Shown here: one piece after another, positions 53,301-64,000 of the stretch
Position numbering within the stretch: the stretch's first letter is position 1
How the letters are laid out: every line of letters begins with the position of its first letter
Source of the DNA: Sandaracinus sp.
GTDB lineage: Bacteria; Myxococcota_A; Polyangia; Polyangiales; Houyiibacteriaceae
Assembly: GCA_002699025.1 (NCBI GenBank)
Contig: PABA01000002.1
Location: forward strand, 49,812 to 113,811
Direction: 5' to 3'
DNA: 64,000 nucleotides
Notes under the pieces: model-generated
What the model saw: the letters and a program-made list of their open reading frames with translations, nothing else
The model's database searches: none
Told to the model about the DNA's origin: nothing
Position numbers and translations under genes: made by a program

Positions 53301-53565
53301 GGCGCGCCGCGAGGACCGGCAGGTCGAGGACGGTGACATCATCACGGCCTGTCAGGCGGCCTGCCCGACCGGCGCCATCATCTTCGGCGACCTCAACCTC
53401 GAGGACAGCCGGGTCGCCCGCGCGGCGGCCGTGAACCGCCAGTACAAGCTGCTCGCCGAGGTCGGCGCGCAGCCTCGCACGACCTTCCTCGGGAAGATCC
53501 GGAACACCAACCCGCACCTCGGCGGCGGCCACGCGGCCGGCGGTGACGAGGAGGCCCACGGATGA
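50323..53565 (+). CDS. actB: alternative complex III subunit ActB (molybdopterin-oxidoreductase-like with Fe-S domain)
   Basis: 1,080 residues. A twin-arginine signal ([10 protein letters not shown], residues 73-82) lies after an unusual 72-residue Lys/Glu-rich lead, and Cys93 in LSLAGC is a possible lipid site. The large middle domain is homologous to molybdopterin oxidoreductases, which in ACIII carries no cofactor. The C-terminal 250 residues hold ferredoxin-type clusters: [43 protein letters not shown] and CTYCVQR with CQAACPTGA, enough for three [4Fe-4S] and one [3Fe-4S]. It overlaps actC (ATGA). Confidence 0.96.
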
Positions 53566-55022
53566 GCGCCCACGCTCCCATTCATGAAATCGGGGAACGC
53601 CACATGCTCCCCGAGGGGACGACCTTCAACGACGTCACGGAGACGGTCGCCCGCATCACCGAGACGAAGGCTCCCCGCGGCTGGTGGATCCTCTTCTTCC
53701 CGTCGCTCGGCCTGCTCGGCCTGATGGTCGCCTGCATCGGCTACCTGGTGACGATGGGCGTCGGCGTCTGGGGCAACAACGCCCCGGCGTACTGGGCCTG
53801 GGACATCACCAACTTCGTGTGGTGGATCGGCATCGGTCACGCCGGCACGCTCATCTCGGCGATTCTGTTCCTCTTCCGCCAGAACTGGCGGACGAGCATC
53901 AACCGCTTCGCCGAGGCCATGACGGTCTTCGCCGTCCTCTGCGCGGCCATCTTCCCGGCGCTCCACACCGGCCGGCCCTGGTTCGACTACTACCTCTTCC
54001 CCATCCCGAACCAGATGGCGATGTGGCCGAACTTCAAGTCGCCGCTGATGTGGGACGTGTTCGCCGTCAACACGTACCTCACCATCTCGGTCATCTTCTG
54101 GTACGTCGGCCTCATCCCGGACCTGGCCACGCTCCGGGACCGGTCGAAGAGCCTGCTCCGGAAGCGCATCTACGGCGCCCTGGCCCTGGGCTGGCGCGGC
54201 TCGCACCGCCACTGGCAGCACTACGAGCGCGCCTACCTCATCTTCGCCGCCATCAGCACGCCCCTCGTGCTCTCGGTGCACTCGGTCGTGTCCTTCGACT
54301 TCGCGACCTCGGTCATCCCGGGCTGGCACACGACCATCTTCCCGCCCTACTTCGTCGCGGGCGCCGTGTTCTCCGGCTTCGCCCTCGTGCTGACGTTGAT
54401 GCTCATCGTCCGCACCGTCTTCGGGCTCCACAACCTGGTCACGATCAAGCACCTGGACTTGATGAACAAGTTCATGCTCGCGACCGGGATCATGGTCGGA
54501 TACGCCTACGCGATGGAGTTCTTCATCGCCTGGTACTCCGGCAACCCGTACGAGTCCTGGGTGTTCTTCCACAACCGGCTCGGCTTCGGCTACCTGGACG
54601 AGCAGGGCAACTGGGGCCCGCTCTGGTGGAGCTACTGGGCGATGGTGAGCTGCAACGTGCTCGCCCCCCAGGTGTTCTGGTCGAAGCGGATGCGCACGAG
54701 CATCCCCGTGATGTTCGTGGTGACCATCTTCATCAACATCGGGATGTGGTTCGAGCGCTTCGTCATCATCGTGACCTCGCTCTACCGCGACTTCATCCCC
54801 GGCAGCTGGGGCAGCTTCGAGCCGACGTGGATCGACATCTGCCTCTACCTGGGCACCTTCGGGCTCTTCATGACCCTCTTCCTCCTCTTCGTGCGGTGGA
54901 TCCCGATGATCGCCATCGCCGAGGTGAAGTACACGCTGCCCCAGGCGCACCCGACCCACGACGACCACCACGAAGAGGACCACGCCCACGCTGCGGAAGC
55001 GGCGCCGGCGCCCGCGGAGTGA
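53562..55022 (+). CDS. actC: alternative complex III subunit ActC (NrfD/PsrC-like quinol-binding membrane protein)
   Basis: 486 residues with about ten membrane helices. NrfD/PsrC-like subunits form the quinol site; the conserved pattern here includes [18 protein letters not shown] and HSVVSFDFA, matching ActC and ActF of known ACIII. The C-terminus ends in a His/Glu/Ala-rich tail. The ATG overlaps actB and the stop is three bases before actD, so the operon is tightly packed. Confidence 0.95.
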
Positions 55023-55025
55023 TCG

Positions 55026-56117
55026 ATGGCCGACGAGAAGAACGACGAGACGCAGGAGAAGGCCAGCTCCGAGGAGTCCTCGGAGAAGGCCTCGCGTGAG
55101 ATGAGCGACGAGCTCGACACGAAGGCCGCCGCCGAGGAGGCCGACGCCGCTGCGGACGAAGCCGACGAGGCCGCCGCCGAGGCCGAGGCCGCCGCGGACG
55201 ACGCCAAGGACTCCGAGCACGTGGCCGAGCGCGCCGCGCGCGACGCCGAGTACGACGAGGACCACAGCGAGTCGCCGCGCGTCGAGGAGGCCACCGCGAA
55301 GGCGGAGGCGGCCGCCGAACGGGCGCACGCGGATCGCGACGACGCCAAGGAGGCCGCCTCCGAGGCGAAGAAGGACGCGAAGGCCGCGCACGACGCCGCC
55401 GCCGAGGGTGATCCGGAGGCCGCGAAGGCCGCCGCCGCCGAGGCGAAGGCGGAGGCGGCGCGCGCCAAGGCCGACGCGAAGGACGCCGAGGACGCCGCCG
55501 AGGAGGCCATCGCCGCCATGCACACGGCGGACGAGGCCAAGCTCGCGCACGCCGACGAGGACCTCGAGCCGGAGAAGCGGCCCGCCCTCTACCTGGCCCA
55601 GTACGAGACGCCGAACGAGCTCGTCGCGGCCGCGGAGAAGGTCCGGGACGCCGGCTACGAGAGCTGGGACTGCCACACGCCGTATCCGATGCACGGCCTC
55701 GACGAGGCGATGGGTCTGCGGCCGACCAAGATCGGCATCATCAGCTTCGTGGCCGGCATGACGGGCCTCGTCACCGCCGTCCTGATGATCCAGTTCATGA
55801 ACAACTGGGACTACCCCATCAACATCGGCGGCAAGCCGGTCGGGGCCGGGGCCTTCCCCTCGATGGTCCCCATCATGTTCGAGCTGACCATCCTGCTCAC
55901 GGGCTTCGGCACGCTCTTCGGCTTGCTGCACCTCGCCCGCCTGCCGCGGCACCACCACCCGATCTTCGAGTCGGACCGGTTCGAGGCCGCGACGGACGAC
56001 AAGTTCTTCATCTCCATCGAGGTCGAGGACGAGAAGTTCGACCTCGACAAGACCCGAGCCCTGCTCGAGTCGACCGAACCGAGCCACCTCGAGCTGGTCG
56101 AGGAGGAGATCGGATGA
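55026..56117 (+). CDS. actD: alternative complex III subunit ActD (DUF3341) with long acidic N-terminal extension
   Basis: 363 residues, about twice the usual ActD. Residues 1-186 are an Ala/Glu/Asp/Lys-rich region with coiled-coil character and no hydrophobic segment. The DUF3341 part (about 188-360) has the ALYLAQYETPNELVAAAEKV start, WDCHTPYPMHGLDEAMG, and two membrane helices (about 240-262 and 280-305). ActD stabilises the complex; the role of the extension is unknown. It overlaps actE (ATGA). Confidence 0.93.
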   Translation: MADEKNDETQEKASSEESSEKASREMSDELDTKAAAEEADAAADEADEAAAEAEAAADDAKDSEHVAERAARDAEYDEDHSESPRVEEATAKAEAAAERAHADRDDAKEAASEAKKDAKAAHDAAAEGDPEAAKAAAAEAKAEAARAKADAKDAEDAAEEAIAAMHTADEAKLAHADEDLEPEKRPALYLAQYETPNELVAAAEKVRDAGYESWDCHTPYPMHGLDEAMGLRPTKIGIISFVAGMTGLVTAVLMIQFMNNWDYPINIGGKPVGAGAFPSMVPIMFELTILLTGFGTLFGLLHLARLPRHHHPIFESDRFEAATDDKFFISIEVEDEKFDLDKTRALLESTEPSHLELVEEEIG

Positions 56118-56767
56118 CCCGCTTCGTTCCCATTCTCTCCGCCCTCGTCGGGCTGACCGCGCTGGCTGGCTGTCGCGGGCAGGTCTCGGAAGAGCCGCCC
56201 ATCGTTCCCATCCGGAACATGTACGACCAGCCGCGCTACGACCCGCTCGAAGAGAGCGACTTCTTCCAGGACGGGCGCACCATGCGGCCGCCGGTCGAGG
56301 GGGCCATCGCCCGCGAGATGGAGCCCGACTCCACCATCGCGACGGGGCGCACCGAAGACGACAGCGCCTGGCTGCTCGAGGTGCCCGCGCAGGTCGTGCA
56401 GCGCGGTGGCGGCATGGAAGCCGTCGTCGAGCGGGGCCAGGATCGCTACGAGATCTACTGCGCCCCCTGCCACGGCGTCGCCGGTGACGCCGAGGGCCTG
56501 GTCGCGAACCGGGCCGTCGAGCGGGGCTTCGCGACCCTGAAGCCGCCGAGCTTCCACGACGACCGCATCCGCCACATGCCCGACGGTCAGCTCTACGCGA
56601 CCATCACCAACGGTATCCGCAACATGCCGAGCTACCGGCACAACGTCCCGCAGGACGATCGCTGGGCCATCGTCACCTACGTGCGGGCCCTCCAGATCAG
56701 CCAGGCCTCGCGCTCCACGGCGATGAACGACGCCACGGCCGCGGGCTCCGAGGAGGCGACGCAGTGA
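56114..56767 (+). CDS. actE: alternative complex III subunit ActE, monoheme cytochrome c lipoprotein
   Basis: 217 residues. Lipoprotein signal with LTALAGC (Cys20), then a cytochrome c domain with CAPCHGV (heme) near residue 115 and a distal Met candidate in GIRNMPSY. It is a peripheral heme subunit of ACIII. The stop overlaps the GTG of actF. Confidence 0.94.
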   Translation: MTRFVPILSALVGLTALAGCRGQVSEEPPIVPIRNMYDQPRYDPLEESDFFQDGRTMRPPVEGAIAREMEPDSTIATGRTEDDSAWLLEVPAQVVQRGGGMEAVVERGQDRYEIYCAPCHGVAGDAEGLVANRAVERGFATLKPPSFHDDRIRHMPDGQLYATITNGIRNMPSYRHNVPQDDRWAIVTYVRALQISQASRSTAMNDATAAGSEEATQ

Positions 56768-58212
56768 GCGCCGAGAAGAAGACGGGTGGCAAGAAGCCCA
56801 CCTACCGCATCCCCGAGAGCGACGGCTTCTGGGCCAAGACCAGCTGGCAGGCCTCCGCCGTGCTCGCGCTGGTCGGCCTGGGCCTCTGCGTCTTCGGCTT
56901 CACGCAGAACCCCGAGCGCTTCGGCTACGCCTACCTCTTCGGGTTCTTCACCGTCCTCACCTTTGCCTTCGGTGGCCTCTTCTACGTGCTCGCGCTCCAC
57001 TTCACGGGCGGGCACTGGGGGCTCACGGCGCGCCGGCTCGCCGAGATCATCGGCCTGAGCGTCGTGCCCACGGCCATCCTGGCCATCCCGCTCTTCGCGG
57101 GCGTCGCCACGGGCACCTTCGACCTCTACGACGAGTGGATGGGCAGCCACCACGGCGGCCACGGCGAGGAGCACGGTGGTGAGCACGGCGAGGAGCACGG
57201 CGACGACCACGCCGAGCCGGCCGAAGGGGAGGGCGCTCACGGTGAGGCCGAGGAGCACGGCTCCCTCTTCGCCCCGAGCGTGGCCCGCGCCCAGGAGTTC
57301 CCTCCGCAGGTGGATCCGCAGCCGCCGATCCGCAGCCACGAGGTGCACACGCCCCAGATGGAGGCCGCGCACCACCACATCATCGAGCACAAGTCGGGCT
57401 ACCTGAACCAGGGCCGCTGGTTCGGCTTCGCGGCGCTCTACTTCCTCATCTGGATCGGCCTCGCGGTCTTCTACTTCCGGAGCAGCGTCAAGCAGGACGA
57501 TGCGCCGAAGAAGGAGCGCTTCGAGCTCACGAACAAGATGAAGAAGGTCTCGGCCCTCGGCGCCATCGCCTTCGGTCTCTCGCTCACCTTCGCCGCCTTC
57601 GACTGGCTGATGGCCCTCGAGGGGAGCTGGTACTCGACCATCTTCGGCGTCGTCATCTTCGCCGGCTCGGCCGTCGCCGTGCTCGCCCTGATCATCGTGC
57701 TCGGTATCGGCCTGCACCGGAAGGGCCACATCGGGAACGCCCTGAACGTCGAGCACTTCCACGACCTCGGGAAGCTCATGTTCGGCTTCATGTGCTTCTG
57801 GGCCTACGTGAGCTTCAGCCAGTGGATGCTGATCTGGTACGCGGGCATCCCGGAGGAGCAGACCTGGTACCACAAGCGCTGGCAGGACGGCTGGAAGGCC
57901 TGGGCGCTCTTCATGATGATCGGCCACTTCGGCCTGCCCTTCTACTTCCTCATCTCGCGCATCGTGAAGCGGAACCTCGGGATGCTGCGCCTCGGCGCCA
58001 TCTGGCTCATCTTCATGCACGTCTGCGACATCTACGTCTTCGTGCTGCCGCAGTACGGCGGGTTCGGCCCGAGCGCGATCGACTTCGGTGCGCTGCTCTT
58101 CTGCGGCGGCGTGTTCTTCACCTTCGTGTTCCGCATGCTGATGCGCGTCCCCCTCATCCCCCTGGGTGACCCGCGTCTCGAGCGGGCCCTTCACCACCAT
58201 CAGAGCCACTGA
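56764..58212 (+). CDS. actF: alternative complex III subunit ActF with His-rich loop
   Basis: 482 residues, GTG start overlapping actE. NrfD-like membrane protein of about ten helices; the core segments (FAAFDWLMALEGSWYSTIFG, HDLGKLMFGFMCFWAYVSF, QWMLIWYAG) match ActF. Between helices 3 and 4 (residues about 128-166) there is a hydrophilic loop of alternating His, Gly and Glu/Asp, followed by Ala/Glu. It forms the proton-translocating membrane part with ActC. Followed by a small gene after 11 bp. Confidence 0.94.
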   Translation: MSAEKKTGGKKPTYRIPESDGFWAKTSWQASAVLALVGLGLCVFGFTQNPERFGYAYLFGFFTVLTFAFGGLFYVLALHFTGGHWGLTARRLAEIIGLSVVPTAILAIPLFAGVATGTFDLYDEWMGSHHGGHGEEHGGEHGEEHGDDHAEPAEGEGAHGEAEEHGSLFAPSVARAQEFPPQVDPQPPIRSHEVHTPQMEAAHHHIIEHKSGYLNQGRWFGFAALYFLIWIGLAVFYFRSSVKQDDAPKKERFELTNKMKKVSALGAIAFGLSLTFAAFDWLMALEGSWYSTIFGVVIFAGSAVAVLALIIVLGIGLHRKGHIGNALNVEHFHDLGKLMFGFMCFWAYVSFSQWMLIWYAGIPEEQTWYHKRWQDGWKAWALFMMIGHFGLPFYFLISRIVKRNLGMLRLGAIWLIFMHVCDIYVFVLPQYGGFGPSAIDFGALLFCGGVFFTFVFRMLMRVPLIPLGDPRLERALHHHQSH

Positions 58213-58804: not shown

Positions 58805-59728
58805 ATGTTCCGACTCCTCCCCATCGTCGCCTTGCTCGTCGGCGTCGCCCTCCAGGCGACCCCGGCCGAGGCGCAGCGTCGCCTGACCGGCGGCGTGGAG
58901 GGGTCCGGCGCGCGCCCGGTGCCGCACCTCGATCGCATCGGGGTGGACGAGCGCCTCGATCAGCAGATGCCCCTCGACGTGCCCTTCCGGGATCACGAGG
59001 GGCGCGAGGTCTCGCTCCGCGACTACGTCGACGGGGAGCGCCCCGTGCTGCTGACCTTCGCGTACCACACCTGTCCCTCCCTCTGCTCCCTCGTCCTCGA
59101 CGCGGCCAAGAACGCCGTGAAGGAGACCGAGTGGACGCCGGGCGACGAGTACCAGGTCGTGACCATCAGCATCGACCCGGACGAGACCGTCCAGGCCGCC
59201 GCGGACAAGCGCCGCGAGGTCCTCGGCGAGCTCGGTCGGGACGGCGCGGACTGGCACTTCCTCGTCGGCTCGCAGGAGGCGATCCAGCGGGTGACGGCCG
59301 CTGCCGGCTACCGCTACTTCTACGACGAGGCCCAGGAGCAGTACGCCCACCCGGCGGCGTTCATGTTCCTCACCCCGGACGGCAAGCTCGCGCGCTACCT
59401 CTACGGGCTGCGGATGGACCGCAGCGACGTGCGCCTCGCCCTCCTCGAGGCCTCCGAGGGGCGTTCCATCTCCACCGGCGAGCGCATCCTCCTCTACTGC
59501 TACGCCTACGACCCCGAGGCCAACTCCTACACCCTCATGGCGTGGAACGTCATGAAGATCGGTGGGGGCCTCACCGCGCTCGCGATGGGGTTCTTCCTCT
59601 TCGTGCTCTGGCGCCGCGAGCGCCGCCGCGGGGGTCTCCTCGAAAACGATTCCGACGTGCCCACCGAGCGTGGTGATACGTCGTCTGGCTCGGCTTCGCT
59701 CCGCGAGCCCAAGCAGGTTGAAGCATGA
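58805..59728 (+). CDS. sco: SCO1/SenC family copper chaperone
   Basis: 307 residues. Signal sequence (LLPIVALLVGVALQATPAEA), then a thioredoxin-like domain with the copper motif CPSLCSLV (residues 97-101 region) and later HPAAFMFLTPDG with the third copper ligand His. It inserts copper into the CuA site of ctaC. Unusually long: after the domain there is a second hydrophobic segment near residues 265-285 and a basic tail, which may anchor it. The stop overlaps the ctaC start (ATGA), linking expression to the oxidase. Confidence 0.93.
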   Translation: MFRLLPIVALLVGVALQATPAEAQRRLTGGVEGSGARPVPHLDRIGVDERLDQQMPLDVPFRDHEGREVSLRDYVDGERPVLLTFAYHTCPSLCSLVLDAAKNAVKETEWTPGDEYQVVTISIDPDETVQAAADKRREVLGELGRDGADWHFLVGSQEAIQRVTAAAGYRYFYDEAQEQYAHPAAFMFLTPDGKLARYLYGLRMDRSDVRLALLEASEGRSISTGERILLYCYAYDPEANSYTLMAWNVMKIGGGLTALAMGFFLFVLWRRERRRGGLLENDSDVPTERGDTSSGSASLREPKQVEA

Positions 59729-60789
59729 CCGAACCGCAGGGAACCGTTCAGCTCCCGCCCCAGCTGTCGACGATCGCGCCCGAAGTCGACGACATGTACT
59801 ACCTGATCTACTGGATCAGCGTCGTCTTCTTCGTCGTGATCACCGGGGCGATGCTGTACTTCATGTACAAGTACCGGCGCCGCCCGGGTCGCAAGGCGAA
59901 GGCGCCGGGGCACGCGACGGCGCTCGAGATCGCCTGGACCGTCGCGCCGCTCTTCCTCCTCGTCTACCTCTTCCACATGGGCTTCCAGACCTACATCCAT
60001 GGGTCGGTGGCTCCGGATGACGCGGTCGACGTGCGCGTCCGCGCGATGCAGTGGAACTGGGAGTTCGAGCATCCGGGCGGGGTCATCGACGAGATGAACC
60101 TCTTCAAGGTGCCCGTGAACAAGCCGGTGCGCGTGATCATGAGCTCGAGCGACGTGCTCCACAGCCTCTTCATCCCGGCCTTCCGGGTGAAGCGCGACGC
60201 CGTCCCGGGCATGTACACCTCGCTCTGGTTCGAGGCGACCGAGCTCACGGACGATCGCGAGTGCGAGGTCGACGCCGACTGCCCCGAGGCCCACCAGTGC
60301 GGCCGGAACGGCACCTGCGCCCTCCCGCTCTTCTGCACCGAGTACTGCGGCGCGCCGCAGAACATCCAGGACTCGGCGGGCCGGAACACCAACCACTCCA
60401 CGATGATGGCCGACGTCCGCGTCATCACGCAGGAGGCCTACCAGGAGTTCCTCGAGCTCGGTCCGCCCCCGCCCCCCGAGTGCGAGGGCTCCGACGACAT
60501 GATGGAGTGCTGGGGCGAGCAGCTCTACGCCGTCAACGGCTGCGTCGGCTGCCACAGCGTCGACGGATCCGCGGGCCCCGCGCCCACCTGGCAGGGCCTC
60601 TGGGGCGCGCAGCGGGCCTTCGATGGTGGCGGCTCGGCGGTCGCCGACGAGAACTACATCCGCGAGTCGATCCTCCAGCCCCAGGCCAACATCGTCGAGG
60701 GCTACACGGCGGTGAACATGCCTCCGTACCGTTTGTCGGACCGGCAGATCGACGCCATCATCGCCTACATGCAGACCCTGAGCGAGTGA
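59725..60789 (+). CDS. ctaC: cytochrome c oxidase subunit II (caa3 type) with two insertions at the CuA site
   Basis: 354 residues. Two membrane helices (about 25-47 and 70-92), the cupredoxin CuA domain, and a C-terminal cytochrome c domain with CVGCHSVD (heme Cys273, Cys276, His277). CuA ligands: His146 in DVLHSLFIP, Cys204 and Cys208 with Glu206 in CTEYCG, then His224 and Met227 in HSTMMAD. Two insertions are unusual: residues about 174-201 containing four cysteines (180, 186, 192, 198) and about 210-223 between CG and HSTM. The fused cytochrome c marks a caa3 oxidase, and ACIII can feed it directly. Confidence 0.95.
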
Positions 60790-60808: not shown

Positions 60809-62494
<1,686 letters not shown>

Positions 62495-62503
62495 AGACGG
62501 CCG

Positions 62504-62532
62504 CGCCGCGTCCCCTTCGGGGTGACGCGGCG
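62504..62532. terminator. stable hairpin between ctaD and ctaE
   Basis: CGCCGCGT-CCCC-TTC-GGGG-TG-ACGCGGCG: a 12-bp stem with one two-base bulge, ten bases after the ctaD stop. No U-run, so it may attenuate or protect the upstream message rather than stop it. The rest of the 151-bp gap holds CCCTTTTTCACGG-like sequence and a GGAGAG ribosome-binding site before ctaE. Confidence 0.45.
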
Positions 62533-62645
62533 TCCGGCCCGATGGCGCGGCGCGTGGGCGCTGCGCACCCTTTCAATCACTCCCTTTTTCACGGTTCGGT
62601 ACGGGACGGGGCACGCGCCCCGCAGTTCACAGGAGAGACCCCCCG

Positions 62646-63389
62646 ATGGCTTCCGACGCGCACGCGCACCACGGGCCGGCCTACCTCGCCCACCACTTCG
62701 AGACGCCCGCGCAGCAGTTCGATGCTGCCAAGCTGGGCATGTGGGCGTTCCTGGCGCAGGAGGTGCTGTTCTTCAGCGGCCTCTTCGTCGCCTACGGCAT
62801 CTTCCGCAATTGGTACCCCGAGGCCTTCTCGATCGGCTCGCACCTGCTCGACTGGCAGATGGGCGGCATCAACACCGTCATTCTGCTCGCCTCGAGCTTC
62901 ACGGCGGCCATGGCCGTCCGGGCCTCTCAGGTCGGGGACCGCAAGCAGACGACGATGCTGCTCGGGCTGACCATCGTCTTCGCCTTCGGCTTCATGGTCG
63001 TGAAGTACTTCGAGTACACCCACAAGATCCACGTCGGGATCCTGCCGGGTCAGTACTGGGGGTGCCCCAGCTTCGACTGCGGAACCGCAGCGCCGGAGGC
63101 GTTCGCCGAGGAGGTCGCCGCGGCGATCGACGCGGCCCATCTGAACGCGGGTCCGGGCATGGTGCCCTACCACCTCCGCTCCTTCTTCGGCATCTACTTC
63201 GTGATGACCGGCCTCCACGGTATCCACGTGCTCATCGGCATCGGCCTCATCGCGTGGATCATGCGGCGCAACCAGAAGGGCGAGTTCAGCGCCGACTACA
63301 ACACCCCGGTCGACATCGTCGCCCTCTACTGGCACCTGGTCGACCTCATCTGGATCTACCTCTTCCCGCTCCTCTACCTCATCGACTGA
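62646..63389 (+). CDS. ctaE: cytochrome c oxidase subunit III
   Basis: 247 residues, ATG with a GGAGAG ribosome-binding site. Subunit III motifs: LGMWAFLAQEVLFFSGLFVAY, WYPEAFSIGSHLLDW, and a C-terminal TGLHGIHVLIGIGLI and WHLVDLIWIYLFPLLYLI. Six or so membrane helices. An extra soluble loop (about 140-175) contains a small Cys pair (CPSFDC). Completes the oxidase core with ctaC and ctaD. Confidence 0.96.
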   Translation: MASDAHAHHGPAYLAHHFETPAQQFDAAKLGMWAFLAQEVLFFSGLFVAYGIFRNWYPEAFSIGSHLLDWQMGGINTVILLASSFTAAMAVRASQVGDRKQTTMLLGLTIVFAFGFMVVKYFEYTHKIHVGILPGQYWGCPSFDCGTAAPEAFAEEVAAAIDAAHLNAGPGMVPYHLRSFFGIYFVMTGLHGIHVLIGIGLIAWIMRRNQKGEFSADYNTPVDIVALYWHLVDLIWIYLFPLLYLID

Positions 63390-63433: not shown

Positions 63434-64000
63434 ATGGCTGACTCCCACGCGCACGACGACCACGGCGACGACTACATGCCGCACGTCCACATCACCTCGG
63501 CGAAGGTGTATGCGGGCATCTTCGGGGCGCTCCTCCTCCTCACGGGCCTCACGGTCGCGGCCTACCGCGTCCGGCTCGGGGAGTGGAACCTCTTCGTCGC
63601 GGTGGTGATCGCGACCATGAAGGCGGCCCTGGTGATGGGCTTCTTCATGCACCTCCACTACGAGAAGACCTTCAACAAGCTGGTCTTCCTCGGCTCGTTC
63701 ATTTTCGTGGCCGTGTTCCTCGGCTACACGATCAACGACACCGGGCACCGGGGCCGCCAACAGAGCATGACGGGTCTGCGGGTGGATCCGGCGACGGGCC
63801 AGTACGCGCACGGCACGGCGGATCTGGTGGCGAATGGGGGGCTCTTCCAGCCGCTGCCCGGCTACGCCGCGGCGCCCACGGCCGAGGCCGAGGCCGAGGC
63901 GGCCGCGGAGACCCCGGCTGCCGAGGAGGCTGCGCCTGCCGAGGACGCTGCGCCCGCCGAGGAAGCTGCGCCCGCCGAGGAGGCCGCGCCCGCCGAGGAG
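63434..64000 (+). CDS. ctaF: cytochrome c oxidase subunit IV-type protein (3' partial)
   Basis: Open to the window edge; 189 residues are visible from the ATG at 63434. His/Asp-rich start (HAHDDHGDD), then three hydrophobic segments (about 25-45, 53-74, 80-98) with MGFFMHLHYEKTFNKLV, the pattern of bacterial caa3/bo3-type subunit IV (usually about 100 residues). Unlike those it continues with a soluble part and an Ala/Pro/Glu repeat (EEAAPAEEAAPAEE) that runs off the window. The tail may anchor a cytochrome or partner; the end is not seen. It follows ctaE after 44 bp. Confidence 0.85.
   Translation, partial: MADSHAHDDHGDDYMPHVHITSAKVYAGIFGALLLLTGLTVAAYRVRLGEWNLFVAVVIATMKAALVMGFFMHLHYEKTFNKLVFLGSFIFVAVFLGYTINDTGHRGRQQSMTGLRVDPATGQYAHGTADLVANGGLFQPLPGYAAAPTAEAEAEAAAETPAAEEAAPAEDAAPAEEAAPAEEAAPAEE

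Follow-up and report, generated by a model that had tools for sequence, protein, structure and literature searches.

The window, a stretch of 64,000 nucleotides of Sandaracinus sp. DNA, carries a ctaC gene beside genes for alternative complex III (ACIII) (Table 1). Its product is subunit II of a caa3-type oxidase and not a new enzyme: the three domains of such a subunit lie in the single CtaC chain, with Pfam matches over the cut-off to COX2_TM (PF02790, 29.1 bits), COX2 (PF00116, 37.2 bits) and Cytochrom_C (PF00034, 39.4 bits). The caa3 subunit II of Thermus thermophilus (2yev_B), with the same order of transmembrane, CuA and fused cytochrome c domains, was the best profile match and also the best Foldseek match (E 1.7e-21) in structure searches that used the whole CtaC model rather than the Cys-rich unit alone. 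It differs from the window CtaC in having a short hairpin and a canonical C-x3-C-x3-H-x2-M motif, without a Cys unit. The first-pass annotation had described a four-cysteine insertion ahead of the CuA ligands and a second insertion between them, and both are indeed present in ctaC. The inserts show why profile models stumble on this protein: the COX2 alignment breaks off at the start of the inserts (profile position 92 of 120), and the score against the NCBIfam CoxB equivalog TIGR02866 is 138.9 bits, below the curated cut-off of 147.7. Of the neighbouring genes, actC, actE and actF are named from the usual gene order, and Pfam gave nothing at E <= 0.01 for the gene in the actF position. The act-ctaC neighbourhood is conserved in relatives.

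Table 1. Features of the ctaC locus (window coordinates; residue numbers refer to CtaC)
Feature	Position	Strand	Evidence or remark
actC-actD-actE-actF, alternative complex III genes	53562..58212	+	Pfam ActD and NrfD over cut-off; actE cytochrome c domain
sco, CuA assembly factor	58805..59728	+	Pfam SCO1-SenC, 43.4 bits; overlaps ctaC start
ctaC, caa3-type oxidase subunit II, 354 aa	59725..60789	+	Two TM helices, CuA domain, C-terminal cytochrome c domain
CuA ligand His146	60160..60162	+	Invariant in 120/120 listed homologues
Expanded hairpin, residues 173-203	60241..60333	+	Between strand 165-171 and CuA Cys204
Four-Cys unit C-x5-C-x5-C-x5-C (Cys180, 186, 192, 198), likely two disulfides	60262..60318	+	0/4/8 Cys rule; pLDDT
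CuA ligands Cys204-x-Glu-x-Cys208	60334..60348	+	Both Cys invariant in 120/120 listed homologues; Glu206 nearly invariant
Ligand-loop expansion, 14 residues (210-223) between CG and His224	60352..60393	+	Canonical 2
CuA ligands His224-x-x-Met227	60394..60405	+	Invariant in 120/120 listed homologues
Cys253/Cys262, second Cys pair, linker to cytochrome c domain	60481..60510	+	
Haem c motif CVGCH, fused cytochrome c domain	60541..60555	+	Pfam Cytochrom_C
ctaD (subunit I) and ctaE (subunit III), downstream of ctaC	60809..63389	+	Pfam COX1 511 bits, COX3 67 bits

A review gives the CuA motif as HX34CXEXCX3HX2M (PMC9145763). The window CtaC reads H-x57-C-x-E-x-C-x15-H-x2-M and misses that motif in both the His-Cys spacing (57 versus 34) and the Cys-His spacing (15 versus 3); the published formula, given there as fixed, does not apply to the group to which this protein belongs. 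Fourteen residues separate Gly209 from His224, against two in the aligned Thermus (2yev_B) and Rhodobacter chains, which read CG-x-x-H in alignments among those listed, so that 12 residues are extra. All five CuA side-chain ligands (His, Cys, Cys, His, Met) survive at the residues where they had been annotated, and they are kept in 120 of the best 120 homologues out of 3449 with E <= 0.001. Among these best 120, the spacing between Cys208 and His224 is 10-26 residues in 118 and 3 in P0104 and P0119. The names of the relatives (Sandaracinus, Polyangiales, Polyangiaceae) put the group in or near Polyangiales.

The distribution of the stretched loop was surveyed in 170 loci from the class and phylum, of which 168 had a readable loop and 163 were distinct. 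Thirty automatic and 80 hand-picked loci were drawn from among the matches listed in a class search, which had a match in 231 of 289 genomes; a further 30 automatic loci had the best COX2 profile scores, a choice biased toward canonical loops, and the last 30 came from genomes chosen for low scores. The survey left out 11 genomes of genus g2, in the same family, with only weak matches (E 1.6e-24 to 2.4e-27), and did not count L184, where the ligand pattern is absent, or L185, which reads 3; the genus g2 genome G199 had no ctaC match in the class search. The Cys-His spacing was 3 in 113 of the 163 distinct loci and 10-31 in 50, shares that are not rates, the loci not being a random sample. Ordered by kinship, the long loop was found in the window's own locus (1/1), in 13 of 13 loci of the same family, in 35 of 74 loci of the same order, in 1 of 26 of the same class and in none of the 49 distinct loci from other classes of the phylum; 49 of the 50 long-loop loci thus belong to the window's order. 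The exception, L017, lies on a 3.6-kb contig and its loop is identical to that of L018, a locus of the window's order, so that L017 is likely a misplaced contig. Outside the phylum, the comparison covered solved structures (five alignments among those listed) and the 120 best relatives of one Bacteroidota (Prolixibacteraceae) CtaC, of which 119 read 3 and one fell outside the pattern. A literature search of titles and abstract openings, covering few subscription journals, returned neither inserts in Myxococcota CtaC nor stretched natural CuA loops.

The first insertion expands the hairpin that precedes the CuA cysteines. In the window CtaC 34 residues separate Phe169 from Cys204 and hold four cysteines within a span of 19 residues, while most canonical relatives of the class have a gap of 11. 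About 23 residues are therefore extra here, not the 28 first estimated, and for the second insertion the corrected figure is the 12 given above. Among the best 120 homologues this hairpin contains no cysteine in 80, four in 30 and eight in 10, and no other count occurs. The opening pair C-x5-C is present in 40 of 40 unit-bearing homologues listed, and the final Cys precedes the CuA Cys by five residues in 38 of 40; the other two, P0044 and P0053, have seven, as does L010, from another family of the same order. Relatives share the insertion: it recurs in frame in homologues from other genomes and metagenomes and in a paralogue in the same genome (66% identity). Since the insert is in frame elsewhere and all of the 120 listed homologues have a Cys count of 0, 4 or 8, it is neither chance nor a frame error, which the recurrence of both inserts excludes.

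In the predicted model of the window CtaC, residues 161-200 have pLDDT block means of 95-97, and the unit is located where strand 197-204 has its far end, at a distance of six residues from Cys204. Because of this position the unit lies outside the coordination sphere, and only the second insert is in the ligand loop; the earlier proposal that the copper site was rebuilt around both inserts as one event does not hold. In the model of a two-unit homologue, P0016, pLDDT falls from 97 to 84 over residues 171-230. Over the ligand region (residues 201-230) the block means of the window protein are 83, 77 and 87, and the stretched loop of P0016 drops to 47-56, against 77-87 in the window protein. 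Such lower values would be expected of a predicted loop if it were ordered only with a partner.

The four cysteines of the unit likely form two disulfides. It was also proposed that they bind a further metal ion near CuA, to which the presence of four Cys in 19 residues lends some plausibility. A disulfide unit fits better with the doubling to eight Cys and with a third Cys spacing that ranges from 4 to 35 residues among unit-bearing homologues; some homologues, moreover, match the disulfide repeats Dickkopf_N or Lustrin_cystein. Metal binding is thus unsupported and, in our judgement, very improbable, while the other part of the same proposal stands, namely that the pattern resembles Cys-rich units, common in this genome, and probably forms two disulfides. 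A second, smaller pattern is seen in the linker stretch around Cys253-Cys262, which has exactly two Cys in 90 of the 120 listed homologues and four in seven, all seven having an eight-Cys hairpin. The mean charge of the hairpin is -5.8 with four Cys, -8.4 with eight and -2.6 with none. This negative charge does not establish a docking surface, since comparable cores elsewhere in the genome are equally acidic (mean -3.5 for 72 of them, -3.2 for 20 distinct CtaC cores); charge was dropped as evidence for an acidic docking pad, the unit being no more acidic than its counterparts.

We compared the unit with Cys-rich units outside CtaC. Dickkopf_N (PF04706) and Lustrin_cystein (PF14625) have spacing of the C-x5-C-x5-C type, as in the CtaC unit; unlike them, the CtaC unit is embedded in a respiratory enzyme. 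The window CtaC itself has no Pfam match to either family at E <= 1. At E <= 0.1, four of the best 120 homologues match Dickkopf_N and 11 match Lustrin_cystein. Only P0044 reaches the Dickkopf_N cut-off among the eight homologues tabled, sitting exactly at it (25.0 of 25 bits), and the best Lustrin match, P0018, remains below its own (22 of 27 bits). A weak match of the window hairpin to Nodulin_late (E 0.15, 12.9 of 30.4 bits) was read as a match of Cys pattern and set aside. The window's own genome holds 42 Dickkopf_N places at E <= 1, three of them over the cut-off; control genomes had Dickkopf_N at E <= 1 in 11 of 14 and over the cut-off in 0 of 14. A DNA pattern for C-x2-D-x-D-C matched the genome 171 times, versus 41 for the reversed control. 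We then built a profile from 26 of the 40 CtaC units, leaving out 10 double units and four with long spacers, and ran it against 339 ORFs, spurious ones included. It gave one match at E 0.0035, where the best shuffle with fixed Cys reached 0.29, and at E <= 10 it gave 37 real and 45 shuffled matches. These results are suggestive at most, and we rejected the claim of proven homology with the other Cys-rich repeats; as far as sequence comparison goes, it is possible that they and the CtaC unit share ancestry.

The Cys unit and the loop stretch are two separate things with different distributions. Among the best 120 homologues the unit is present in 40 and absent from 80, including the fairly close P0019 and P0032, while the loop stretch, found in 118, occurs with or without the unit and in a much wider set. 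The surveyed loci agree, with the unit in nine of the 163 distinct ones (eight from the window's family, and L010). P0104, which combines the unit with a canonical ligand loop, demonstrates that the two inserts can be uncoupled. Other inserts occur at the unit's site. Family f38 (L161, L168-L170, L172, L173, L175, L176, L178-L180) has a long Cys-free hairpin there together with a canonical ligand loop, with 76-89 residues in the eight of 11 loci that were measured against the usual 11, and the P0082 group has Cys-free hairpins of 29-38 residues. L183, another subunit II, has a different hairpin insert with two Cys, its ligand loop again being canonical.

A FastTree tree of 276 rows was computed with the loop columns excluded; P0039 and 14 loci missed by the pattern (among them L022 and L073, both long-loop) are not in it, nor, by choice, are L001, L002 and L033-L045. 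Every one of the 49 rows with the unit falls in a single set of 185 rows (support 96), together with 116 of the 118 remaining rows that have a long loop, L094 and L098 falling outside; 20 unit-less rows inside the set have canonical loops. The tree requires seven changes for the unit and eight for the long loop. A second tree, computed under C20 from 83 rows hand-picked from the 276, requires eight changes for the unit, and many of its branches are weak. One origin for the unit was not rejected (AU p 0.269), and although the trees need seven or eight changes we do not claim multiple independent gains. The stretched loop likely spread first and more widely, the unit being added within that background.

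The main, serious rival to a functional reading is that the insertions are neutral ornaments: the hairpin and the Cys-His segment would be tolerant surface sites into which a common disulfide unit drifted, leaving electron transfer unchanged. The same hairpin accepts unrelated Cys-free inserts, in the P0082 group and in f38, the length of the long ligand loops ranges between 10 and 31 residues, and the excess of C-x2-D-x-D-C patterns indicates how common such units are in this genome. Against drift, the strict Cys count of 0, 4 or 8 and the near-constant spacing of five residues to the CuA Cys suggest a fold under selection, and in the main group of the 276-row tree the unit is retained in 42 of 45 rows (support 83), though the C20 tree splits that group. 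Taken together, we consider neutrality rather unlikely.

Gene neighbourhoods bear on two further explanations. Genes for act proteins were found in 26 of 30 ctaC neighbourhoods, around canonical, stretched and unit-bearing versions alike; the four without them are a short contig (L033), two lone ctaC copies (L045 and L251) and the Bacteroidota locus L046. An adaptation specific to ACIII was therefore rejected, since act genes accompany every loop type, and because they adjoin all versions of ctaC the operon gives no particular reason to see docking to ACIII as the cause. In Rhodothermus marinus, as in the window, ACIII occurs with a caa3 oxidase carrying a haem c of its own, and ActE is postulated there to be the electron donor to that oxidase, while in Flavobacterium ActE is dispensable (PMC8552683); the contacts of the Flavobacterium ACIII-oxidase supercomplex are made via oxidase subunit III (PMC8361435). 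A changed redox potential or altered docking to ActA/ActE, as suggested at first, is possible.

The second explanation is a role in assembly, in which SCO, while loading CuA, would recognise the extra Cys or the long loop or use them for disulfide exchange. The sco gene, whose end overlaps the start of ctaC, is its immediate upstream neighbour in 27 of 30 cases, and Sco proteins recognise CuA loops in other organisms (PMC6696091). However, sco precedes canonical ctaC too, and the even number of Cys in the unit is what is seen in structural disulfides, which makes this role improbable in our view. The sco stop and ctaC start codons overlap as ATGA (59725-59728), which suggests coupled translation.

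A precedent for the stretched loop comes from engineered Thermus CuA chimeras, in which the ligand loop on a CuA scaffold was altered in length, as in the window CtaC. Grafting the loops of other copper proteins produced type 1 sites, and a longer loop went with a higher reorganisation energy, ascribed to weaker shielding (PMC7480511). The chimeras differ in being engineered mononuclear type 1 sites, whereas the window loop is natural and retains the full set of CuA side-chain ligands. With every copper ligand kept, any effect of the inserts would be on the surroundings of the site; given also the rise of reorganisation energy with loop length in the chimeras, the reading we prefer is a remodelled electron-entry face. 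We propose tentatively, at somewhat below even confidence, that the four-Cys unit (likely with two disulfides) and the ligand loop longer by 12 residues remodel this face and not the copper ligands. In this remodelled face the unit would cap the cupredoxin barrel at its membrane-distal end as a rigid, stapled element, and might help the fused cytochrome c domain to settle over the CuA end. The stretched loop would expose CuA more to solvent unless a cover packs on it, and the insertions could then tune the coupling and reorganisation energy of electron transfer from haem c to CuA.

A broader version of the remodelled electron-entry face can be entertained, albeit doubtfully. The Polyangiales caa3 oxidases would then constitute a natural loop-expanded class of CuA sites, binuclear, with Cys-His spacings of 10-31, full ligands and altered shielding and reorganisation energy, in some lineages covered by a domesticated extracellular disulfide module that docks cytochrome c. 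The caa3 subunit II is already known; what appears to be new is that a natural CuA loop is stretched and that a Cys unit is grafted in. Oxidases that seem intact yet have 10-31 residues in this loop amount to a natural experiment relating loop length to CuA electron-transfer parameters, a question approached before with engineered chimeras (PMC7480511). The unit, for its part, is an example of a Cys-rich module, of a kind common in its own genome, grafted into a core respiratory enzyme.

The paralogue mentioned above is a second CtaC (G000 contig C197:19277-20314; L001, L265) that keeps both the Cys unit and CxxCH. The 19.5 kb read around it matched none of the ctaD, ctaE, sco or act proteins of the window, and the genome has two subunit I matches; this lone CtaC may be an alternative subunit II. 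L045 and L251 are similar lone copies. Three minor features of the window are also recorded. CtaE contains a two-Cys loop (GCPSFDCGT..., 63054-63173) resembling an insert, and its best-matching COX3 segment in Pfam begins just after this loop, at residue 182. In ActD, some 185 N-terminal residues with much Ala, Glu and Asp (55026-55590) form an extension ahead of the Pfam ActD domain (residues 189-354). Finally, a small ORF after ctaE (63434-64000) has a terminal Ala-Pro-Glu repeat that continues past the window edge.
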